From NCBI RefSeq assembly GCF_001375595.1, contig NZ_CVJQ01000001.1, positions 1,054,001 through 1,118,000 of the forward strand: a DNA stretch of 64,000 nucleotides, given 5' to 3'. Within the stretch, counting starts at the first letter, position 1, and each line of letters opens with the position of its first letter. This DNA comes from Phenylobacterium immobile (ATCC 35973) (GTDB taxonomy: Bacteria > Pseudomonadota > Alphaproteobacteria > Caulobacterales > Caulobacteraceae). The position numbers were made by a program, and so were the translations under genes. This document shows positions 3,688 to 17,173 of the stretch, one piece after another. The notes beneath the pieces were generated by a model that saw nothing but the letters and a program-made list of their open reading frames with translations, ran no database searches and was not told where the DNA came from.

Positions 3688-4230
3688 CTAGGCGGGATAG
3701 ATGAAGGGGCCGGCGAATGCGCCGAGGATGGCGGCGACCAGCAAGGCCCAGGCGGGATTGCGTTTCAGGGTGAGCACGAAGGCCATGGCCGCCAAGCCGA
3801 TGATCCAGGCCCAGATTGTTGGATTGGCGCCGCGCGATAGCACGAGGCCACTGGCCATCAGCAGGCCGACGGCGATGGGCGCCAGGCCGGTGCGGATCGC
3901 GCGCACAATGGTCAGGCTGTCGTAACGGGTGATCAGCCGGTTGGCGACAAGGGCCAGGAGGCTGGAGGGGATCAGGATCGCCAGGGTCGCCACCAACAGG
4001 CCGGCGACGCCGGCCACCTGCCAGCCGACCATACTGACCAGGAGCACGTTGGGGCCCGGCGCGGTGTTGGCGATGGCGAACAGCTGCGAGAAGGTCGCCT
4101 GGTCCATCCAGTGCTGCTGGTCGACGGCGATGCGCTGAATCTCCGGCGTCACCGCATTGGCCCCGCCGACGGCGCCGACAGACAGGGCCGCGAAGGTCGT
4201 GGTCAGGCTGACAAGGTCGCGGGCGCTCAT
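3688..4230 (-). CDS. Chromate transporter family protein, second half-size subunit
   Basis: 180-residue membrane protein of the CHR (ChrA) family, short-chain type. In these pairs two ~180-residue proteins with opposite topology replace one ~400-residue ChrA. The domain signature GAVGGANAVTPEIQR near residue 18 and the segment NTAPGPNVLLVSMVGW are typical. The ATG at 4230 overlaps the TGA of the preceding gene (ATGA, 4227-4230), which indicates translational coupling and equal dosage of the two halves. Transport of chromate itself is family knowledge and is not demonstrated here; some members may carry other anions. Confidence 0.85.
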   Translation of the reverse strand: MSARDLVSLTTTFAALSVGAVGGANAVTPEIQRIAVDQQHWMDQATFSQLFAIANTAPGPNVLLVSMVGWQVAGVAGLLVATLAILIPSSLLALVANRLITRYDSLTIVRAIRTGLAPIAVGLLMASGLVLSRGANPTIWAWIIGLAAMAFVLTLKRNPAWALLVAAILGAFAGPFIYPA

Positions 4231-4799
4231 TTGCGCATGCCTTGCCAGACGACGGCGATGCTTGCGGCGCCCAGTACGAAAAGGGCCGCAAGCAACGGTA
4301 CGCGGAAGACGCCGACAGCGATAAAAGTCATGAGCGCAAAGCCCATGGCTGTGCGACCGAGCTTCAGGCCTGTCAGCATCTTGATCGCCGTCCCCGCCAC
4401 GAGGCCTGCGGCGGCTGAACCCGCCGCGCTGAGCGCGCCGCGCACCATCGCCAGATCGCCATAGCGGCCATAGAGGACTGCTGCGCAGATCAGCAGCAAC
4501 AACGGCCCGCCCATCAGGCCGAACAGCGCCATGAGGGCGCCCAGCGGCCCCTGGGCGCGGTCGCCGATCATCACCGCGGCGTTGACGGTGTTGGCCCCGG
4601 GCAACGCCTGGCCGATCGCCAGCACCTGGGCGTATTCGGCGTCGCTCAGCCACCGGCGCTCTTCGACGATCACCCGTCGCGCGCCCGGCGCTACGCCGCC
4701 AAAGCCCAGGGCGCCGATCTTGAAGAAGCCCAGGAACAGGTCCTTGAGGCTGATCGCCAGGGGCGCGCCCCAGCGGTCTTCAACTGTGGTCTCAGTCAC
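4227..4799 (-). CDS. Chromate transporter family protein, first half-size subunit
   Basis: About 190-residue CHR-family protein forming the first half of the split transporter. The signature FFKIGALGFGGVAPGARR followed by EERRWLSDAEYAQVLAIGQALPGAN is diagnostic. I chose GTG 4799 (VTETTVEDRW) because AGAGGGG lies at good spacing upstream; an ATG at 4859 would add 20 residues without hydrophobic or conserved character. It is translationally coupled to the second half through ATGA. The 3' end of the glycogen operon (stop at 4864) lies just beyond its upstream region on the same strand, so read-through from that operon is possible. Confidence 0.85.
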   Translation of the reverse strand: MTETTVEDRWGAPLAISLKDLFLGFFKIGALGFGGVAPGARRVIVEERRWLSDAEYAQVLAIGQALPGANTVNAAVMIGDRAQGPLGALMALFGLMGGPLLLLICAAVLYGRYGDLAMVRGALSAAGSAAAGLVAGTAIKMLTGLKLGRTAMGFALMTFIAVGVFRVPLLAALFVLGAASIAVVWQGMRK

Positions 4800-4863
4800 G
4801 CAGGCCCCTCTTCTGTCGTTGGGCCGTTCATGGAACTCCGGGGCCGGGATGACAACCACGGAC

Positions 4864-7800
4864 CTACCTTTGCGCCATGCCCCGCAGAATCGCCTGAGCG
4901 CGGGGTGAATCGAACAGTCGCGCCAGTGGCGTCGCCAGCCGTCGCCGCCAGTTAGGCCGTTCTCGGTCGGTGCCGGGCAGGTTCACGCCGACCGTCTCAC
5001 CGGCCAGGTCGTCGGCTTGAGCCACGGCGATCAGGCTTGCGCTACGGGCGACGAAGGCGTGGATCAGTTCGGCGAGGTTGTCCGTCATTGGCCCGTTGGC
5101 GTCGCCCGTTCCGAGGGCGGCGACGAGGTCGGCGCGGTCGCGGGCCCGCTGGGCCCGCTCCTGGGCGGCTTGATCGGCTGGCGTGAGGCCCAGGGCCTGG
5201 CGCTCATCGATCTCGGCGCCCGCCCACCACCCCTTCAGCGGCGGCAGGTCGTGGGTGCCGACGCAGGCCCAAGCCTTGGAAGCATAGGCCTCGGGCGGGG
5301 TGAACCCGCCTTCGTCCCGCTCGAAGGGCAGGACGCGGTAACCCAGCACATTTCGCCCGGTCAGGGCCGCGCGGAGGCCATCGGGGACCACACCCAGGTC
5401 CTCCCCGACCACGACGCAACGCGCCTGCCAGCTCTCCAGGGCGAGCTGACCTAAGAGGTCGTCAAGCGGGAAGGCGACATAGGCGCCGTCCGCGCCCTCG
5501 GCTCCATGCGGCGCCCAGAACTGGCGGGCCAACCCAAGGGCGTGGTCGACCCGCAGCGCGCCGGCGTGGCGCATATTGGCGGCGAGCATTCGGCCATAGG
5601 CCCGGTAGCCGTCGGCTGTGAGAGCGTGCGGATTGAAGGGCGGGGCGCCCCAGACTTGACCCTGGGGCGCAAACGCATCCGGTGGCGCGCCGATCGCGAC
5701 GCCCTTGGCCAAGAGATCGGCCATGGCCCAGGCCTCGGCGCCGTCGGGCGCGGCCGCGACGGCGAGGTCCCGGCAGAGGCCAAGCGACAGGCCGCCGCGC
5801 CGCGCCGCGGCGCCCAGCTCGGCGTCCGCCCGCCATTGCAGATACTGGTGAAACCGCAGGCGCGGGGCGTGCGCCTGGGCGAAGGCGCTCGCACGCGCCG
5901 CGTGAGGCGTACGCAGCGCCTCGGGCCAGCTGCGCCAGTCCTGGCCGGGGTGGGCGTCAGCGATCGTCTCAAAAAGGGCGAAGCGCGCCAGATCCTCGCC
6001 GCCGGCGACGATGAAGGCCTCAAGCGCCGCATCGTCGACGCCGGCCGCATAGGCCGCCTCCAGCGCCGCAAGTTTGGCCCCCCATACCGCGGGGTAGTCG
6101 ATCAACTCGCTTCTGCTGACCGCGCCCGCTCCCGGGACATCAAGGTAGATGGGGTCGAGGAAGCGACGATCGGAGGGATAGTAGGGGCTGGCGCGTTCGC
6201 GATCGCCGTTGAACAGGGTGTGCAGTGGATTGATCCCCACCACCGCGAACCCGTGGGCGGCGCTGGCGGCCGCCAAATCGCCAAGGGTTGTGAGATCACC
6301 AATCCCCTGATCGCCCGCGCGCCGCAGGCTGTAGAGCTGGGTCGCCAGGCCCGATATCCGCGCGCCCTCGGCGAAATCGGGCGGCAGGAAGCATCGTTCC
6401 GGCGCGACCGTCAGGCGGCACAGCGCGTCCGGCGCGTCTTCCCGGCGCACTTCATAACGGCCGGCCGGCAGCGGCGGGGCGGCCAGGGCGAGGGTCGCAA
6501 CCTCGCGGCCATCAGCGGCCATCGCGTGGGTGATGGGCGCGTCGACGCCCGTCGCCAGGCGGCGCACGCCAACGCCGTCACCGCGGATTTCGATCCAGGT
6601 CCGCGGCGCCGGGTGTGCCGGATTGAAGCGCAGGGGCAGGGTGAAGGCGGTCTCGGCGGTCGCGGTCAGGGCCGCGGGCAGGGCCCGGCGGTCTCGCTGC
6701 GCGGCGAGTCGGTCAAGCGACGTCAGGGCCTCCCCAGTGGAACCAGCAGGCAAGCCCATGGCGGCGAGCAAGGCCGTTTGCGTATCAGCGCTGACCGGAT
6801 GGGCCTCGCCATCGAACCCGCGCCATTCGGGCGCGACACCCGCCGCCGCCGCCAGCCGCGCCAAGGCCTCTGTATTGGTCGGTCGCGTGGTCGGGGTGGC
6901 GGTCTCGACCTCGCCGAGCAGCAAGACGGATCGGGCGCTGAGCGATACCCGGCCCTCAACGTCCCCTTCCCGCTCGGGATTCGCGCTGTCGGCCAGGATG
7001 CGCCAGGCATGGCCATCGCGCGTTCCGGGCAGCATTGCTTCAGCAGGCGAGCGGGCGCGGTGGATCGCCAGGACCACGCGATCCAGCACGGCGTCCTCGG
7101 AGGCGGCCAGGCCGACCACCAGGGTCGCGCCATCCGCCGCGTCCCAGTCGTAAGCGCTCAACGGCGAGCCATCGGCGCGTCGCCACTCCACATCGGCGAA
7201 GGGCTCGTCGGCCAGCAGCCGGCCCGTCAGGAACCGGTCCTGACGCAGGGCGGGGTGGCTGCGCCTCGCCGCGATCAGCCGCGCGGTAAAGCCGGCCAGG
7301 CTTTCGTCGGCGGCGGCCCAGTCGAGCCAACTCGTCTCATTGTCCTGCGTATAGGCGTTGTTCGCGCCCGCCTGGCTGTGACCGAACTCCGCGCCCATGG
7401 CGATCATCGGCGTCCCGCGCGCCAGGATCAAGGTCGACAGCAGCGCGCGTTGGTCACTGAGGCGTGCGGCGCGTACGACAGGCTCATCGCTCGGCCCCTC
7501 GACCCCATTGTTCCACGAACCTTCGTGGTCGGAGCCGTCGCGGTTGTCCTCGCCGTTCGCCCAGTTGCGCTTGACCTCATAGGTGACGAGGTCGGCCAGG
7601 GTGAAGCCATCGTGGGCGGTGACGAAGTTGATGCTACGGCTCGGCCGCTTGCCGACGAAGACATCCTGCGATCCCGAAAGCCGCGTGGCGAGCTTGCCCA
7701 GCGTGATCGGTCCGCCGCGCCAGAATCCCCGCACATCATCGCGGAAATGATCGTTCCATTCACCCCATGCGGCCGGAAAACGGCCAAGCTGGTAGCCGTC

Positions 7801-8928
7801 CAGGCCGCAGTCCCATGGCTCGGCGATCAGCTTCAGGTCGCGCAACGCCGGGTCTTGGTCGATCGCCGCCAGCAGGGGCGAGGCCGGATCGAAACCGGCG
7901 GGCCCGCGGCCCAGGGTCGTCGCCAGATCGAAACGGAAGCCTTCGATCCCGCCCAGCGTCGCCCAGGTCCGCAGGGTGTCCATGGCCAGGCGCATGCCTG
8001 CCGGCCGCTCCAGCGCCAGCACGTTGCCCGTGCCCGCGTCGTTCACATAGCGGTCCGGCCGGCCGGCCTGGAGGCGGTAGTAACCCGCATTGTCCAGGCC
8101 GCGCAGCGATAGCGTCGGGCCCAGTTCGTCGCTCTCGCCGGAGTGGTTGAAGACCACATCGAGGAGAGTCTCGATGCCAGCCGCCGCCAAGGCGTCGGTC
8201 GCCGCGCGCACCTCGGCCCATCCGCCGGGCGCGAGGCGCGGGTCCGGCGTCATCCAGGCGACGGGGTTGTAGCCCCAATAGTTGGTCAGGTTCAGCGGCG
8301 GTAGGTGGCGCTCGTCCATCCAGGCCATGCAGGGCAGAAGCTCGACAGCGGTGACGCCGAGGCGCAGCAGGTGGGCGATGGCGGCGGGATGAGCGAGGCC
8401 TGCGAAAGTTCCCCGCATCTGCTCGGGGATGTCCGGGTTCAGGCGGGTGAAGCCGCGCACGTGCAGCTCGTAGATCACCGTATCGGCCCAGGCGGTCTTC
8501 AGCGGCGGGCGTCTGCGCGCCTCCGTCGCCGGTTGGACAAGGGCCTTCGCGACGTATGGCGCGCTATCTTCGCCATGGACTGACATCGTCGGGTGCAGGC
8601 GGATCTGGCTGTCGAGGGCGCGCGCATACGGGTCGATCAGCAGCTTGGACGGATCGAACCTCAGGCCGCGTTCCGGCGCGAAGACGCCATGCGCTCGCAA
8701 CCCGTAGCGGGCGCCCGCGCCTAGGCCCGCGATCCGTCCATGGAACACCGGCCCGGTCCGGCCCGGCAGCGGCAGCCGCGCTATTTCGGCCCCTTCCGCG
8801 TCGAAGAGACAAACCTCGATGGCTTCGGCGGCGCTCGACCAGACGGCGAAGTTGACCCCGTCGCCGACCAGGCTCGCGCCCAGCGGCTCGGGCGCGCCCT
8901 CCTCGATCGGATGGGCCCCCGCCGCCAC
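4864..8928 (-). CDS. glgX: GlgX-MalQ fusion: glycogen debranching enzyme plus 4-alpha-glucanotransferase
   Basis: 1354-residue fusion. Residues 1-~675 are a GlgX-type isoamylase: a CBM48-like N-domain, then a GH13 barrel with DVVFNHSGE (258-266), nucleophile Asp334 in FRFD, acid/base Glu370 in IAEPW and His-Asp 439-440 in TAHDGF. From ~685 to the end is a GH77 amylomaltase: MalQ-type N-domain, then RVDH with Asp1128, VVGEDLG with Glu1176, and THD at 1225-1227. All catalytic residues of both enzymes are present. The reading frame is continuous with no stop between the domains. It starts at GTG 8928, 2 bp after the glgA stop. It would trim alpha-1,6 branches and recycle the released maltodextrins in one polypeptide. 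Confidence 0.93.
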   Translation of the reverse strand: MAAGAHPIEEGAPEPLGASLVGDGVNFAVWSSAAEAIEVCLFDAEGAEIARLPLPGRTGPVFHGRIAGLGAGARYGLRAHGVFAPERGLRFDPSKLLIDPYARALDSQIRLHPTMSVHGEDSAPYVAKALVQPATEARRRPPLKTAWADTVIYELHVRGFTRLNPDIPEQMRGTFAGLAHPAAIAHLLRLGVTAVELLPCMAWMDERHLPPLNLTNYWGYNPVAWMTPDPRLAPGGWAEVRAATDALAAAGIETLLDVVFNHSGESDELGPTLSLRGLDNAGYYRLQAGRPDRYVNDAGTGNVLALERPAGMRLAMDTLRTWATLGGIEGFRFDLATTLGRGPAGFDPASPLLAAIDQDPALRDLKLIAEPWDCGLDGYQLGRFPAAWGEWNDHFRDDVRGFWRGGPITLGKLATRLSGSQDVFVGKRPSRSINFVTAHDGFTLADLVTYEVKRNWANGEDNRDGSDHEGSWNNGVEGPSDEPVVRAARLSDQRALLSTLILARGTPMIAMGAEFGHSQAGANNAYTQDNETSWLDWAAADESLAGFTARLIAARRSHPALRQDRFLTGRLLADEPFADVEWRRADGSPLSAYDWDAADGATLVVGLAASEDAVLDRVVLAIHRARSPAEAMLPGTRDGHAWRILADSANPEREGDVEGRVSLSARSVLLLGEVETATPTTRPTNTEALARLAAAAGVAPEWRGFDGEAHPVSADTQTALLAAMGLPAGSTGEALTSLDRLAAQRDRRALPAALTATAETAFTLPLRFNPAHPAPRTWIEIRGDGVGVRRLATGVDAPITHAMAADGREVATLALAAPPLPAGRYEVRREDAPDALCRLTVAPERCFLPPDFAEGARISGLATQLYSLRRAGDQGIGDLTTLGDLAAASAAHGFAVVGINPLHTLFNGDRERASPYYPSDRRFLDPIYLDVPGAGAVSRSELIDYPAVWGAKLAALEAAYAAGVDDAALEAFIVAGGEDLARFALFETIADAHPGQDWRSWPEALRTPHAARASAFAQAHAPRLRFHQYLQWRADAELGAAARRGGLSLGLCRDLAVAAAPDGAEAWAMADLLAKGVAIGAPPDAFAPQGQVWGAPPFNPHALTADGYRAYGRMLAANMRHAGALRVDHALGLARQFWAPHGAEGADGAYVAFPLDDLLGQLALESWQARCVVVGEDLGVVPDGLRAALTGRNVLGYRVLPFERDEGGFTPPEAYASKAWACVGTHDLPPLKGWWAGAEIDERQALGLTPADQAAQERAQRARDRADLVAALGTGDANGPMTDNLAELIHAFVARSASLIAVAQADDLAGETVGVNLPGTDRERPNWRRRLATPLARLFDSPRAQAILRGMAQR

Positions 8929-8930
8929 CG

Positions 8931-10382
8931 TCAGCCTGCGGCCAGGTCGCGGTATAGGCTTGCATAGGCCTGCGCAGGCTCGGTCCAGGAGACGTCGCTG
9001 GCCATGCCATTGAGCTGAAGGCGACGCCAGGAGTCAGGCTTGCGATAAAGACTGGATGCCCGCCGGATCGCGCTCTCCAGCATGGGACCGCTGACCGGCG
9101 AGAACTGGACGCCGGTGGCGGTGCGCGCCGCCATGGCCATGGGGCTGGCGTCGATGATCGTGTCCGCCAGGCCGCCGACGCGAGCGACCACCGGCACAGC
9201 CCCATAGCGCAGGGCGCACAGCTGGGTCAGACCGCAGGGCTCGAACCGCGACGGGACGATCAGGGCGTCGACACCGGCCTGGATCGCATGGGCCAGGGTC
9301 TCGTCGTAGCCGATTTGCACGCTGATCCGGCCAGCGTTCGAAGCCGCGGCGTTGGCGAAGCCCTCCTCCATCCATCGGTCGCCCGAGCCCAGCACCGCGA
9401 GCTGGCCGCCAGTCTCCAGGATCGTTGGTAGGGCGGCGAGCAGGAGGTCCAGTCCCTTCTGCCAGCTCAGTCGGCTGATCACGCCGAAGAGCGGCGCATC
9501 AGGGGCGACCTCCAGGCCCAACCGGGCCTGCAAGGCGGCCTTGTTCACGGCGCGGGCGGCGATGTCCGCGGCGTCGTAGGCCTGGGCGATGTGCGGGTCG
9601 GTCGCCGGATTCCAGACGTCGGTGTCGATCCCGTTCAGGATCCCGCTGAGGCGGTCGGCGCGACCGCGGATGAGGCCGTCGAGGCCCATGCCCCACTCGG
9701 GGGTGCAGATTTCGGCTGCATAGGTCGGCGAGACGGTGGTCACCCGGTCGGCCAGGCGCAGGCCCGCCTTCAGGAAGCCGATGTCGCCATAGTATTCGAC
9801 GCCGTCGTGGGTGAAGGCGTGCGCCGGCAATCCAAGCGCCCCCATCAGCTTGCGGTCGAACTGACCCTGGAACGCGAGGTTATGGACGGTGAACACGACT
9901 GGCGTGCGCGGGCCGCCGTTGAAGGTGAGATAGGCCGCGGTCATGCCCGCCTGCCAGTCGTGGGCGTGCACAACGTCGGGCCGCCAGTCGGCCAGCAGGC
10001 CCTGGGCGATCGCCGCGCCAGCCGCCGACAGGGCGGCGAACCGGAGGGCGTTATCGCCGAAGTCGCGTCCGTCCATGCCGGCGTAGGGTCCGCCGGCTCG
10101 GTCGAACAGGTGCGGCGCGTCCAGCACGATCAGGTCCAGACCCTCGACCTTGACGCCCAAGAGCTGCGCCGGTCCGCCGAAATGCGTCGTAAAGGCGTGA
10201 AGCGGCTTGGCGCGCTTCAACCGCGCCATCACCGCCGGATACCCGGGCAGCAGCGTCCGCACCGTCACGCCCTCGGTCTTCAATGCGCCGGGTAGGGCGC
10301 CGGCCACGTCCGCCAGACCACCGGTCTTGATCAACGGATAGACTTCGGACGCGACCGCCAGGACGTTCAGCTTCACGGCCAT
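8931..10382 (-). CDS. glgA: Glycogen synthase (ADP-glucose, GT5)
   Basis: 483-residue GT5 glycogen synthase, transferring glucose from ADP-glucose to the growing alpha-1,4 chain. Key features: [10 protein letters not shown] (19-28) for ADP-glucose binding, HDWQAGMT (141-148), the C-domain entry ISRLSWQKG (302-310), and the acceptor/nucleotide motif [11 protein letters not shown] with Glu381, then VGGLADTI. Length matches bacterial GlgA. ATG 10382 lies 2 bp after the glgC stop, and its own stop lies 2 bp before the fusion gene, so it sits inside a single operon. Confidence 0.96.
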
Positions 10383-10384
10383 CC

Positions 10385-11647
10385 TCAGAGCCGGTCGATC
10401 ATCTTCTGGGTGATCAGGCAGACGCCGCCTTCGGACCGGCGAAACCGCTTGCCGTCGATCAACGGATCCTCACCGACGATCAGGCCCTCGGGAATATCCA
10501 CGCCGCGGTCGATGATTACGTTCTTCAGGCGCGCCGAGCGGCCGATGCGAACGCCTGGCATGATCACGCCAAGTTCGACATTGGCGTAGGAATTGACCCG
10601 TACGTCGTTGAACAGCACCGATCGCGAGATCGAGGCGCCGGAGATGACGCAGCCGCCCGATACGAGCGATGACACCGCAGACCCGCGTCGCCCTGGATGA
10701 TCGTGCACGAACTTCGCCGGCGCGTTCATCTCACTGTACGTCCAGATCGGCCAGTCCCGGTCATAGAGGTCGAGGTCGGGCACCACCTCGGTCAGGTCGA
10801 TGTTGGCGGCGAAGAAGCTGTCGATGGTGCCCACGTCGCGCCAATAGGGTCCCGCGTCTGAGGCCGTGCGGATGTAGGAGCGCGCGAACGGGTGGGCGAC
10901 CGCCTTGCCGCCCTTCACCAGCCTGGGAATGATGTCCTTGCCGAAGTCGTGGTCGCTGTCCGGATCGGCCGCGTCGCGTCGCAACTCCTCCGCCAGAAAG
11001 GCGACGTCGAACACATAGATGCCCATGCTGGCCAGGGCCGTGTCCGGCCGGCCCGGCATGTGCGGCGGGTTCGCGGGCTTCTCCAGGAAGTCGATGATCT
11101 GGTCGTTCTCGTCGACGTGCATGACGCCGAAGCCCTTGGCCTCCTCGATGGAAGCCTCGATGCAACCCACGGTCACGTCCGCGCCCTGGTCCACATGCTG
11201 CTGAAGCATGGGCTCGTAGTCCATCTTGTAGACGTGGTCGCCGGCCAGGATGACGATGAACTGCGCGCCGTAGTCCTCGATGATGTCGAGGTTCTGATAG
11301 ACCGCGTCGGCGGTGCCGAGATACCACATGTGCTCGTCCACGCGCTGGCTGGCGGGCAGGATGTCGAAGGTCTCATTGCGCTCGGGTCGGAAGAAATTCC
11401 AGCCGCGCTGCAGATGGCGGATGAGGCTGTGGGCCTTGTACTGCGTCGCCACCGCGATCCGCCGGATGCCGGAATTCATGGCGTTCGACAGGGCGAAGTC
11501 GACAATGCGGAACTTGCCGCCGAAGTAGACCGCCGGCTTGGCCCGGATATCGGTCAGCTCCAGCAAGCGGCTGCCCCGACCGCCAGCCAGCACATAGGCC
11601 ATGGCGTGGCGCGACAGCGGGCCGGATTGGGTCTTCGGGGTCGTCAT
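10385..11647 (-). CDS. glgC: Glucose-1-phosphate adenylyltransferase
   Basis: 420-residue ADP-glucose pyrophosphorylase, the committed and usually allosterically controlled step of bacterial glycogen synthesis. It has the nucleotidyltransferase loop AGGRGSRL, the sugar-phosphate region [28 protein letters not shown] for metal binding, and a C-terminal left-handed beta-helix ([14 protein letters not shown] onward). I place the start at ATG 11647 (MTTPKTQ) because it forms an ATGA overlap with the glgB stop; the in-frame ATG at 11671 lies inside glgB. Confidence 0.96.
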
Positions 11648-13824
11648 TCTGGGGTCCTTGCGCCGTCCCACCTCAGGAACACCGTAGCGAGCGGCGGTAA
11701 AAGAATTTCACTGGAGGCTGGAAAACCCGCGAACGCCTCATCGGTGGCGATCACCTCGCCGAGATTTCCCAGGCCCGAACCGCCGTAGGCATAGGCGTCG
11801 GAATTGAAGACCTCCGTCCACGTCCCTGCGTGCGGCAGACCCAGCCGGTAGCCCTGGCGTGGCTCGGGCGTGAAGTTGCAGATCACCGCGACGGGGGCGT
11901 CGCCCTCTTCGCCAAACCGGATCCAAGCTGCAGTGGATTGAGCGGCGTCGTCCACCACGCTCCACCGGAAGGCGTCCGCATCGTTGTCCCGGCGGAAGAG
12001 CGCCGGCGTTGCGCGATAGAGGAGGTTCAGGTCGCGCACCAACTGCCGCAGGCCCTGGTGTTCGGGATATTGCAGCAGTCCCCACTCCAGTTGCCCGGCC
12101 TCGCTCCATTCGCGGCGCTGACCGAATTCCTGGCCCATGAACAGAAGCTTCTTGCCGGGATAACCCCACTGGAAACCATAGAGCCCGCGCACAGCGGCGA
12201 ACCGACGCCAGTCGTCGCCCGGCATGCCGGACAGGATCGTGCCCTTGCCGTGGACCACCTCGTCGTGACTGAGCGGTAGGACATAGTTCTCACTGAAGGC
12301 GTAGGTCAGCCCGAAGGTCAGCTTCTCGTGGTGGTGCTTGCGAAACAACGGATCGAGCTCGAGGTAGGCCAGGGTGTCGTTCATCCACCCCATGTTCCAC
12401 TTGAAGCCGAAGCCCAGTCCGCCCTCGTGGACCGGGGCGGTCACGCCGGGCCAGCTGGTGCTCTCCTCGGCGATCATCAGGGCCTTGGGCTGCTCGGCGT
12501 AGACGGTGGTGTTAAGCGTCTTCAGGAAGGCCTCGGCGTCGCGGTCCTCGCGTCCCCCCTCAGCGTTGCGCGGGAAGTCGCCGCCCTCGCGGCCATAGTC
12601 CAGATAGAGCATGGCGCTGACCGCATCGACGCGCAGACCGTCAGCGTGGAACACCTCCAGCCAGTAGAGCGCATTGGCGATCAGGTAGTTGGCCACTTCG
12701 CTGCGGGCGAAGTCATAGGCCGCCGTATTCCACTGGGGCTGGAAACCGCGCCGCGGATCGGGGTGTTCGTAAAGCGTGTCGCCATCGAACCGCGCCAGAC
12801 CGTGGGCGTCGGCTGGAAAATGCGCCGGCACCCAGTCCAGAATCACGCCAAGGCCCGCGGCGTGGGCCGCATCGATCAACCGGGCCAACCCCGCCGGCTC
12901 GCCGAACCGGGCGGTGGGGGCGAACAGGCCGATCGGCTGGTAGCCCCAGCTTTCGTCCAGCGGGTGCTCGAACACCGGCATGAACTCCAGGTGGGTGAAA
13001 CCCATGTCCTTGGCGTAGGGGATCAGCGTCTCGGCGATCTCGTCCCAGGTCAGGAAACGGCCTTCCGGTCCCCGTCGCCAGGACCCCAGGTGCACCTCGT
13101 AGATGCTCATGGCGGCCCGCCACGGCTCGGCCGGGCGCGCGTCGCGGTAGCCGGCGTCCCGCCACGCGTGGTCTAGCGGCGCCGGGACCACCGAGGCGGT
13201 GGCCGGTCGCAGTTCCGAGGCCTGGCCGAAGGGGTCGGCCTTCAACGGCAGCCGTTCGCCTGCGCGGGAAATGATCGAGTACTTGTAGGTTGCTCCTGGC
13301 GTCAGGCCAGGCGCGAAGACCTCCCAGACGCCGCTGTCGACCCGCTTGCGCATGGGCAGGGCGCGGCCGTCCCAGTCGTTGAAGTCGCCGACCACCGCAA
13401 CCTGAGCCGCGTTCGGCGCCCAGACGGCGAAGCTCACGCCATGGACGCCCTCATGGGTGATCGCGTGGGCGCCCAGCTTTTCGTACAGCCTGTGGTGGGC
13501 GCCCTCGATCAGCAGGTGATCGTCCAGCGGCCCCAGCAGCGGGCCGAACCGGTAGGGATCGTGCGCCACCCAGCGACCGCCGCGGTTTGTGGCGCGCAGC
13601 AGATAAGGCTGGCCTGGGGCGAGGGGGACGGCGCCTTCGAACACCCAGGGCCGCCGCTCGGTCAGGGTCGCCAGCACCGCGCCGGTCTCGGCCAGCACCT
13701 CCAGCGTCTCGGCGTGCCGCACGAAGGCCCGCACCCAGCCGTCGTGGGGTCCCAGGACAGCGAAGGCGTCGGCCAGTTGTCCCTTGGCGATCGCAGCGAC
13801 CTCGTCGTCCGTCAGGGTGCTCAA
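11644..13824 (-). CDS. glgB: 1,4-alpha-glucan branching enzyme
   Basis: 726-residue GH13 branching enzyme with an N-terminal CBM48-type beta domain ([11 protein letters not shown], then [10 protein letters not shown]). Catalytic residues are in place: nucleophile Asp400 in GLRVDAV, acid/base Glu453 in IAEES, and His-Asp 520-521 in [12 protein letters not shown]. It forms alpha-1,6 branches in the glucan made by GlgA. Length is usual for GlgB with the extra N1 module. It is coupled to glgC by an ATGA overlap and lies 46 bp downstream of glgP. Confidence 0.96.
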
Positions 13825-13869
13825 GGTCGTCTCCGGACGGAGGGCGGGAATTGGGGGCGGCGGATCACC

Positions 13870-16356
13870 CTACCGCTTGGTGACGGGCACGTTCCAGATG
13901 TCCTCTGCATATTCCCGGATTGCCCGGTCTGATGAGAAGAAGCCCATGTGGCTGGTATTGAGGATCGCCGAGCGCATCCAGCCCGTCTTGTCGCGCCAGC
14001 GATCACGCACGTCGGCCTGGCGGGCGCAGTAGGCGTCGAAGTCCGTCAGCACCAGGAAATGGTCGTGGTCCATCAGCCCATCCACCAGCGGCTTGTAGAG
14101 GTCCGGCTGATCCGGCGAGAAGACGCCCGAGCGCACCTGGTCCAGCACCTGTTGCAGCATGGGCGATCCCGCCACGATCTCGGCGGTCTTCAGTCCTTCG
14201 GCGCGCGAAGCCTGCACCTCGGCCGCGGTCAGGCCGAAGATGAAGATGTTGTCGTCGCCGACATGTTCCTTGATCTCGACATTGGCCCCATCGAGCGTGC
14301 CGATGGTCAGCGCCCCGTTCAACGCCAGCTTCATGTTGCCGGTGCCCGACGCTTCCATTCCCGCGGTCGAGATCTGCTCGGATAGGTCGGAGGCCGGGAT
14401 GATCTGCTCGGCCAGGCTCACATTGTAGTTCGGCAGGAACACCACCTTCAGCAGGCCGTGCAGGGTCGGGTCGGCGTTCACGGTGCGGGCCACGTCGTTG
14501 ATCAGTTTTATGATCAGCTTAGCGTTGTGGTAGCTGGCCGCCGCCTTGCCGGCGAAGATCTTGACCTGCGGCGTCCAGTTGCGGTGCGGCTGGGCGCGCA
14601 TCTGGTCGTAGAGCGCGATGGTCTGCAGGATGTTGAGCAGCTGGCGCTTGTACTCGTGCTGGCGCTTGATCTGCACGTCGAACATCGCCTCAGGGTCCAG
14701 CCGGATGTGCAGCTTCTCCCAGGTCAGCGCGGCCAGCGCCGCCTTGCGCTCCTTGCGCACCGCCCAGAACCGCTCGTGCACGCCGGCGTCGTCGGCGAAG
14801 GCCGCGAACTCCCCCAGGGTCTCGGCGTCGTGCAGGATCTTCGGACCCACCACATCGACCATCAGGTCGGTCAGGCCCGGGTTCGCCTCCATCAGCCAGC
14901 GGCGGAAGGTGACGCCATTGGTCTTATTGACGATCCGGTCGGGGTAAATCTTGTGGAAGGCCGAGAACACCGTGGTCTTCATCAGGTCGGTGTGCAGCGC
15001 CGAGACGCCGTTCACCTTGTGCGACCCGACGAAGCTCAGCCAGCCCATCCGCACCTGCCGGCCGTGGCTCTCCTCGATCAGCGACACCTCGCCCATCTGT
15101 TCGTCGGAAACCCTGCCCGAGGCCTTCAGTCGCTCCAGATGCTTGGCGTTGATCAGGTAGATGATCTGCATGTGGCGCGGCAGAAGCCGCTCCATCAAGG
15201 CCACCGGCCAGTGCTCCAACGCCTCCGGCAGCAGGGTGTGGTTGGTGTAGCTGAAGGTCGCCACCGCGATGTCCCAGGCCTCATCCCAGGGCAGCTGGTG
15301 CACATCGACCAGCAGGCGCATCAGTTCGGGAATGGCGATCGCCGGGTGGGTGTCGTTCAGCTGGATCGCCACATGCTCGGCCAGCGACCGGATCTCGCCG
15401 TCATGCTGGCGCATGTGCCGGCGGATGATGTCCTGCAGCGCCGCCGAAGAGAAAAAGTACTCCTGCCGCAGGCGCAGCTCCTCGCCCGCCGGTGTTTCAT
15501 CGCTGGGATAGAGCACCTGGGTGATCATCGCCGCCTGCGCCTGGCTGGCCAGCGCCGCCACGTGGTCGCCGCGGTTGAAGGCGTCCAGCTTCAGCGGGTC
15601 GGGCGCGCGCGCCGACCAGAGCCGCAGCGTGTTCACATGTCGCCCGCGCCACCCCACCACCGGCGTGTCATAGGCCTGGGCCTCCACCGTCTCGGCCGGG
15701 TGCCAGGCGTAGGTGTCTTGGCCATCGGCCTGTTCGACCGCTTCGACCGTGCCGCCAAAGCCGATCGAGACCAGCACTTCCGGCCGCTCGAACTCCCATG
15801 GATTGCCCGACGCCAGCCAGTTTTCCGGCACCTCGCCTTGCCAGCCGTCGTTGATCGTCTGGCGGAACAGGCCGTGGTCATAGCGGATGCCGTAGCCGTG
15901 CGCGGCCACCGCCAGGCTCGCCATACTCTCCATGTAGCAGGCGGCCAGCCGCCCCAGGCCCCCGTTGCCCAGCGCCGCGTCCGGCTCGATCGCCTCCAGC
16001 CGCTCCAGGCTGACGCCCAGCTCGCGCAGGGCGTCGCGCATCTGGTTAGTGATGCCCAGGTTGTTCAAGGAATCGGCCAGCAGCCGGCCGATCAGGAACT
16101 CCAGCGACAGGTAGTAAACCCGCTTGCGCTTCTCCTGGTAGATCGCCCGCGTCGAGGGAAACCACCGGTCGACGATCCGATCGCGCACGGTGAGGGCCGT
16201 GGCCATGAACCAGTCGTGTTCGCTGGCCGTGATCGGGTCCTTGCCCACCGCATAGGTCAGCTTCGCCACCAGGGCGCGCCGCAGGGTGGTGATCTCCTCA
16301 TCCTGCTGCGGCAGCGGGATGTAGGCGGCGGGCGAAATGTCGGTGGGAGCAGCCAT
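13870..16356 (-). CDS. glgP: Glycogen/starch phosphorylase
   Basis: 828-residue GT35 phosphorylase releasing glucose-1-phosphate from alpha-1,4 glucan. The PLP site is in GTGNMKLALNG with the Schiff-base lysine near residue 686, followed by GTLDGANVEI. The N-terminal EPDAALGNGGLGRLAACY and the GYGIRYDHGLF segment are classic. It is the first gene of the minus-strand glg operon (glgP-glgB-glgC-glgA-glgX/malQ), so degradation and synthesis are co-expressed. No purine-rich ribosome site is visible before ATG 16356; the preceding bases are TCCTCCTT. Confidence 0.96.
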   Translation of the reverse strand: MAAPTDISPAAYIPLPQQDEEITTLRRALVAKLTYAVGKDPITASEHDWFMATALTVRDRIVDRWFPSTRAIYQEKRKRVYYLSLEFLIGRLLADSLNNLGITNQMRDALRELGVSLERLEAIEPDAALGNGGLGRLAACYMESMASLAVAAHGYGIRYDHGLFRQTINDGWQGEVPENWLASGNPWEFERPEVLVSIGFGGTVEAVEQADGQDTYAWHPAETVEAQAYDTPVVGWRGRHVNTLRLWSARAPDPLKLDAFNRGDHVAALASQAQAAMITQVLYPSDETPAGEELRLRQEYFFSSAALQDIIRRHMRQHDGEIRSLAEHVAIQLNDTHPAIAIPELMRLLVDVHQLPWDEAWDIAVATFSYTNHTLLPEALEHWPVALMERLLPRHMQIIYLINAKHLERLKASGRVSDEQMGEVSLIEESHGRQVRMGWLSFVGSHKVNGVSALHTDLMKTTVFSAFHKIYPDRIVNKTNGVTFRRWLMEANPGLTDLMVDVVGPKILHDAETLGEFAAFADDAGVHERFWAVRKERKAALAALTWEKLHIRLDPEAMFDVQIKRQHEYKRQLLNILQTIALYDQMRAQPHRNWTPQVKIFAGKAAASYHNAKLIIKLINDVARTVNADPTLHGLLKVVFLPNYNVSLAEQIIPASDLSEQISTAGMEASGTGNMKLALNGALTIGTLDGANVEIKEHVGDDNIFIFGLTAAEVQASRAEGLKTAEIVAGSPMLQQVLDQVRSGVFSPDQPDLYKPLVDGLMDHDHFLVLTDFDAYCARQADVRDRWRDKTGWMRSAILNTSHMGFFSSDRAIREYAEDIWNVPVTKR

Positions 16357-16636
16357 AAGGAGGACCGATCAGCGCAATGGAACGAGCCCTATGGGTAGGG
16401 CGCAGCGCGCGGCGTGGTCTAGCTCAATCGCGTCAAGGGGCGACGGTTTTGCGGGGATGCCTGGGCCGCCAAGTCTCTGCGTCAGTTCCTACTCACGCAG
16501 CCAGCACACCGCACCATGAGGATAGTTGGAGCCAATTGGGGCTTGCCGTCATGCCCAAAACGAACGCGGCGTACGCCAGGGCGAGGGCCCGCCCGATCTC
16601 CAATTTGCTCAGTATGACGGTGCGAGGGAACACTTT
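16357..16636. other. Intergenic region upstream of glgP
   Basis: About 280 bp between the start of glgP and the 3' end of the deformylase gene, both on the minus strand. It must hold the glg operon promoter. A TTGACG followed by GCTAGAC is visible on the minus strand (about 16415-16435), but the spacing is only ~7 bp, too short for an alphaproteobacterial housekeeping promoter. Small ORFs here look non-coding. Confidence 0.4.
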
Positions 16637-17173
16637 CTACTCTTCCACGCCCGCCAACGGTCCGTCCGGGAACAGCGCCTCGATGAACCCGAACTTGGTC
16701 ATGTCGGTGATCCGCATCGGGTAGAGCACGCCGTTCAGGTGGTCGAACTCGTGCTGGAAGACGCGGGCGTGAAAGCCGCGGGCCTCGATCGCGACGTCGG
16801 TTCCATTCTCCAGCGTCCCGCCATAGCGGATGTGGTTGGCGCGCGGCACCAGTCCGCGCATGCCGGGCACCGAAAGGCAGCCTTCCCAGCCTTCCTCTGT
16901 CTCTTCCGTCAGCACCTCGATCCAGGGATTGATCAGGGTGATGAGCGGCACCGGCGCTTCGTCCGGATAGCGCGGGTTCTTGTCGAAGCCGAAGATCATC
17001 AGCCGCAGGTCGACGCCGATCTGCGGGGCGGCCAGGCCTACGCCCTTGGCGTCGTGCATGGTCTCGTACATGTCGGCGATGATGGTCCTGAGCTCAGGAT
17101 CGCCCAGGTCCGCCACCGGCTGGGCGACGCGCAGGAGGCGGGGGTCGCCCATCTTCAGAATGTCTCTGATCAT
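16637..17173 (-). CDS. def: Peptide deformylase
   Basis: 178-residue Fe/Zn peptide deformylase removing the formyl group from nascent N-termini. All three family motifs are present: [10 protein letters not shown] (44-53), EGCLSVPG with metal ligand Cys99, and HEFDH (141-145) giving two His ligands and the catalytic Glu142. Length is normal. It does not sit next to fmt in this window. The [11 protein letters not shown] tail is typical of a type I enzyme with a short C-terminus. It may be one of several def copies. Confidence 0.95.

Follow-up and report, generated by a model that had tools for sequence, protein, structure and literature searches.

A GlgX–MalQ fusion protein encoded at the end of a glycogen gene cluster in Phenylobacterium immobile

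We found that the genes for the glycogen debranching enzyme GlgX and the 4-alpha-glucanotransferase MalQ are joined in one gene of Phenylobacterium immobile (ATCC 35973). The gene lies in a 64,000-nucleotide stretch of contig NZ_CVJQ01000001.1 (the window; Table 1), where it is the last member of a tight cluster with the order glgP-glgB-glgC-glgA-(glgX-malQ). As judged from its sequence, the product is very probably a two-enzyme protein of glycogen breakdown, in which the GlgX half would debranch and the MalQ half would rearrange the freed chains for the phosphorylase GlgP. The first-pass annotation of this DNA had read the complete catalytic residues of two enzymes, GH13 GlgX and GH77 MalQ, in one uninterrupted frame, and the open frame, the profile matches, the alignment and residue conservation all bear this out.

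The fusion frame of 1354 residues, corresponding to a protein of roughly 145 kDa, begins with GTG and contains no internal stop; from stop to stop, the frame spans 1389 residues. The GTG sits 2 bases past the glgA stop, a strong ribosome-binding site was not seen there, and this codon is not proven to be the exact start. GC at the third codon position stays at 0.70–0.90 across the junction (40-codon windows, codons 561–920), with 0.84 for the whole gene. Because this coding-type pattern is continuous over the junction and intact fused frames exist in other genomes, an assembly error is unlikely; a frameshift or chimeric assembly was thus rejected, and the joined frame is real. Near the junction there are in-frame ATG, GTG and TTG codons (for instance TTG at 689 and ATG at 724); a clear ribosome-binding site was not seen for these. 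An Rfam search of the window gave no matches, and a scan of 4200–17000 found no promoter-like sites; its four terminator-like sites compare with the 5.1 that chance would give.

The N-terminal half passes the curated GlgX cut-off of TIGR02100 (640.9 bits). Pfam Alpha-amylase (PF00128) reaches only 15.7 bits on the fusion protein, short of its cut-off of 22, and would therefore miss the GlgX barrel if used alone; the GH13 assignment is based on TIGR02100 and on solved GlgX structures. The catalytic acids of this half are D334, E370 and D440, and its catalytic motifs align with those in three solved GlgX/TreX chains, among them Escherichia coli GlgX (2wsk) and 7u39. In the C-terminal half, TIGR00217 matches residues 818–1349 with 313.3 bits, exceeding its cut-off of 205.65. 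Residues 7–675 of the solved MalQ 5b68 align with fusion residues 689–1329, and since the N-terminal domain of that enzyme is matched from about residue 689 on, the MalQ half is complete. Its catalytic acids, D1128, E1176 and D1227, are assigned from GH77 motifs and conservation. All six acids are kept in 24 of 24 aligned fused proteins, the window protein included. A structure prediction covering residues 155–1354 has a mean pLDDT (predicted local distance difference test) of 80.2 and a pTM (predicted template modelling score) of 0.65, the MalQ half being better than the GlgX half. The last GlgX strand ends at about residue 675 and the first MalQ helix begins at about 686, with a block pLDDT of 61 between values of 92 and 90, so the linker is some 10 residues long. 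How the two halves are arranged in this model, which was built on a shallow alignment, is not confidently predicted.

Table 1. Features of the glycogen cluster, in window coordinates (residues refer to the fusion protein)
Feature	Position	Strand	Residues	Basis
glgX-malQ fusion gene	4864..8928	-		single open frame, 1354 aa
CBM48 (isoamylase N-terminal) domain	8623..8886	-	15-102	Pfam PF02922, 51.1 bits, cut-off 22.4
GlgX half, GH13 debranching enzyme	6916..8898	-	11-671	TIGR02100, 798.6 bits
Linker	6874..6903	-	about 676-685	structure model, low pLDDT, variable in alignment
MalQ half with N-terminal MalQ domain	4867..6873	-	686-1354	TIGR00217, GH77, 5b68 match
GH77 catalytic domain	4933..6339	-	864-1332	Pfam PF02446, 333.2 bits, cut-off 25
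glgA, glycogen synthase	8931..10382	-		NF010699, 780 bits, cut-off 762; ends 2 bases before fusion gene
glgC, ADP-glucose pyrophosphorylase	10385..11671	-		NF001947, 673 bits, cut-off 470
glgB, branching enzyme	11644..13824	-		NF003811, 929 bits, cut-off 741
glgP, glycogen phosphorylase	13870..16356	-		TIGR02093, 1130.6 bits, cut-off 552.9

In the proposed pathway, the GlgP encoded in the cluster would trim the outer chains and leave a stub a few glucoses long at every branch, and the GlgX half would hydrolyse the alpha-1,6 bond to free these stubs as short chains. The MalQ half would then move glucan units among these chains, yielding longer GlgP substrates together with glucose or maltose. 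The fusion would hold both activities at 1:1 under one start codon. According to a passage of PMC11205506, which also describes the E. coli GlgX step, Actinoplanes MalP barely acts on maltotetraose and is more active on chains of at least five glucoses; a passage of PMC11046441 gives the same division of labour, with that role for MalQ. This chain-length preference and the published division of labour make a GlgX–MalQ pair functionally sensible. We infer the activity of both halves, their substrate range and any benefit of proximity.

The rest of the genome (six contigs, completeness 100) is consistent with such a role. Both halves exceed the curated single-enzyme cut-offs with their six acids conserved, and the genome has one GH77 match (the fusion itself), one GlgX over the cut-off and one phosphorylase, glgP being the sole PF00343 match. 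The separate malQ that the first-pass annotation had proposed to look for was not found in this genome, nor was a second GlgX over the cut-off; weaker matches to the GlgX profile are glgB and a 554-residue GH13 frame at C1:903 kb. We also considered a role in the trehalose pathway, as TreX with MalQ, and found it unsupported, as the genome has no TreY over the cut-off and the gene lies within the glg cluster. Three points weigh against a two-enzyme protein of glycogen breakdown. Catalytic residues do not prove activity, so the function stays a prediction; the protein might be divided into two enzymes by proteolysis, or translation might also start inside the frame at the codons near the junction; and many relatives have separate glgX and malQ genes in this cluster, or only glgX there. 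Beside the cluster, 4 bases past the fusion gene, two adjacent frames (window 3688–4859, minus strand) match the halves of a chromate transporter; both score under the full-length cut-off and are likely a split two-gene transporter.

The distribution of the fusion is patchy. In the family sample, 7 of 149 genomes have it intact, P. immobile included (G000, G032, G046, G052, G070, G074 and G100). In one further genome (G115), it is interrupted by a contig end and has one TAG inside the matched stretch; in another (G090), the two halves lie at the ends of two contigs, where the fused state cannot be judged. Among 397 genomes of the phylum that are at least 90% complete, at least 16 in eight families carry an intact fusion, again with P. 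immobile counted (G000, G150, G154, G162, G166, G169, G173, G177, G200, G204, G208, G238, G311, G462, G491 and G501). Thirteen of these were read as frames, and three (G177, G200 and G208) come from the match table only; G158 appears fused in that table, but a stop separates two adjacent genes. The first-pass annotation had suggested checking the spread of the fusion, and its statement that bacteria usually encode the two enzymes separately holds in both samples. Among the same-genus genomes in the matches listed (n = 24), two have the fusion, three have separate GlgX and MalQ frames and 19 have neither at any strength. In named genomes, the fusion is intact in 9 of 80 loci: Rhodopila globiformis, Ancylobacter polymorphus, Ancylobacter gelatini, Albimonas sp. 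CAU 1670, Albimonas pacifica, an uncultured Kordiimonas, a Rhodospirillales metagenome-assembled genome and two other proteobacterial ones. A plasmid search matched 699 records; in 26 of these, a single place covers 80% of the query or more. Of the 30 records listed, those with annotation below both halves give glgX and malQ as separate genes, as far as annotation goes.

The order glgP-glgB-glgC-glgA-fusion is repeated in eight other loci (L061, L062, L064, L065, L066, L152, L153 and L155). The Rhodopila locus (L063) has the cluster order with the fusion, but no glgB was seen between glgP and glgC. Paracoccaceae loci (for example, L069, L070, L071, L074 and L075) keep the same order with glgX alone and no malQ in the stretch examined. 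In sphingomonad glg loci (L095, L097, L098, L100–L103 and L106), the GlgX match stops near query residue 545–596, no malQ is present in the stretch examined, and the GlgX frames are mostly about 590–630 residues long; these loci may have lost both the MalQ half and the C-terminal domain of GlgX.

The first-pass annotation had allowed that a fusion in this order might already be well described. Annotation does describe it, as the NCBIfam model NF011082 (PRK14510.1-1), named bifunctional glycogen debranching protein GlgX/4-alpha-glucanotransferase; our search of the open-access literature found no paper on a GlgX–MalQ protein, subscription papers being mostly outside its coverage. The fusion is thus catalogued rather than new, and no biochemical description of it was found in the open-access literature. 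NF011082 holds the same two enzymes in the same order, and residues 8–1353 of the window protein match positions 6–1406 of its 1410. However, the score of 1641.5 bits is under the curated cut-off of 2511, indicating the same kind of fusion but not a formal member. The named A. polymorphus fusion also misses this cut-off (2208.3 bits), and none of the 397 phylum genomes reaches it. A second model with the same fusion name, NF011083 (PRK14510.1-2, 1186 positions), matches only residues 961–1243, with 67.3 bits against 1322; in 150 phylum genomes at E 1e-250 it gave no matches, and neither did the controls, so that its absence does not follow.

Each half also matches solved separate enzymes, such as those of E. 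coli (2wsk and 4s3p), which are two polypeptides, and the best stretch of each of the 49 PDB matches listed stays on one side of the GlgX–MalQ junction. The eukaryotic debranching enzyme GDE/AGL similarly has glucanotransferase and debranching activity in one polypeptide, but according to a passage of PMC4236520 it has no homology to bacterial GlgX. In GDE/AGL, transfer comes first and removal of a single glucose follows; the window protein would instead free a whole chain and then rearrange it. Other neighbouring alpha-glucan genes are likewise joined in frame, with different partners: GlgX–TreZ and MalQ–TreY, which belong to trehalose synthesis, and the glgB-malQ fusion of Neisseria (in a passage of PMC11046441). 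In the window's genus, one locus (L143:355-4215) has GlgX and TreZ in one 1287-residue frame (TIGR02402, 755 bits, over the cut-off), and a second (L144:334-4194) has GlgX joined to another partner, also in a 1287-residue frame. At other loci, MalQ and TreY share a 1542-residue frame (L141:4231-8856; TIGR02401, 950.3 bits, over the cut-off), and a short-type GH77 domain lies inside a 1263-residue open frame (G257:C2:125158-126567, L158), perhaps another kind of fusion such as the glgB-malQ of Neisseria.

In neither the GlgX nor the MalQ phylogeny do the fused proteins make up a single clade, so the join was probably gained or lost several times. The MalQ tree holds 77 rows, of which 29 are fused and include two repeats; these fused rows form four groups, and the starred branches force at least four changes. 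The GlgX tree (80 rows, 29 fused) needs five changes, of which at least four are forced. A single fused clade was rejected by the approximately unbiased (AU) test for both MalQ (p-AU 2.2e-177; 72 rows, 27 fused) and GlgX (p-AU 7.9e-11; 76 rows, 26 fused). The MalQ test was run without two repeats (L155 and L014) and the long branches L039, L055 and L060, and the GlgX test without L155, L014, the fused row L151 and L120. Before the tree counts, 44 locus identifiers were dropped (near-duplicates, same-place repeats, fragments and surplus actinobacterial GlgX), and 23 of the 26 short-type MalQ loci were also left out. Four groups are common to both trees: an alphaproteobacterial glg-cluster clade with the window protein, a clade of families f39, f42 and f45 outside the window's class, Albimonas and Kordiimonas. 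The halves of one protein (G501, L154) disagree: its MalQ half groups with the fused clade and its GlgX half with unfused GlgX. A half may have been exchanged, or MalQ may have been lost from neighbours such as those with a short Novosphingobium GlgX (about 590–630 residues). The trees are quick ones with long branches, carrying support from the Shimodaira–Hasegawa-like approximate likelihood ratio test (SH-aLRT) only, with no bootstrap, and many rows have an unusual amino-acid make-up; a repeated origin of the join is therefore likely, but not proven. The trees fit either several gains or a smaller number of gains plus losses, and the four changes in the MalQ tree could be of either type.

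The join can be explained in several ways. A real possibility, if somewhat short of even, is that the stop between two neighbouring genes was simply lost and that the halves work independently. Unfused adjacent glgX and malQ genes are found in three loci (Crenalkalicoccus L118, L147 of G095 and L023 of G158), and the other joined alpha-glucan genes (GlgX–TreZ, MalQ–TreY and glgB-malQ) fit the same idea. On the other hand, at least families f1, f3, f5, f10 and f11 retain the fusion within the alphaproteobacterial clade (19 rows, of which 18 are distinct), a persistence beyond what a purely accidental join might be expected to show. A slightly more tentative alternative is that several independent joins in the same order arose in Pseudomonadota because two enzymes tethered at 1:1 are better than free ones at degrading limit dextrin, making the fusion a bacterial counterpart, evolved along a separate route, of the eukaryotic two-activity debranching enzyme. 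True channelling, the idea of the first-pass annotation, in which freed chains would be handed directly from the GlgX to the MalQ active site and never join the cell's pool, is plausible but seems unlikely to us; the short linker and the recurrence of the fusion in separate branches of both trees hint at selection for proximity, but the structure model gives no confident placing of the active sites, and adjacency alone can yield recurrent fusion of neighbouring genes. Finally, that the long frame is an artefact, or that the protein is cut in two, is highly improbable, as the only sign of it is the start codons near the junction, against the coding-type GC there and the intact fused frames in many other genomes.

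A two-enzyme protein of glycogen breakdown would matter in different ways depending on what the tether does. If it improves limit-dextrin breakdown, the protein would serve as a natural model of debranching coupled to chain rearrangement, useful in starch processing; if it brings nothing, the case would neatly illustrate how neighbouring pathway genes repeatedly become joined. For annotation, a gene named only as glgX or only as malQ conceals its second enzyme, here in a genome where no separate malQ was found. Of these findings, only the recurrence of fusion within this pathway, seen also as GlgX–TreZ and MalQ–TreY in this same family of genomes, may be of specialist interest.

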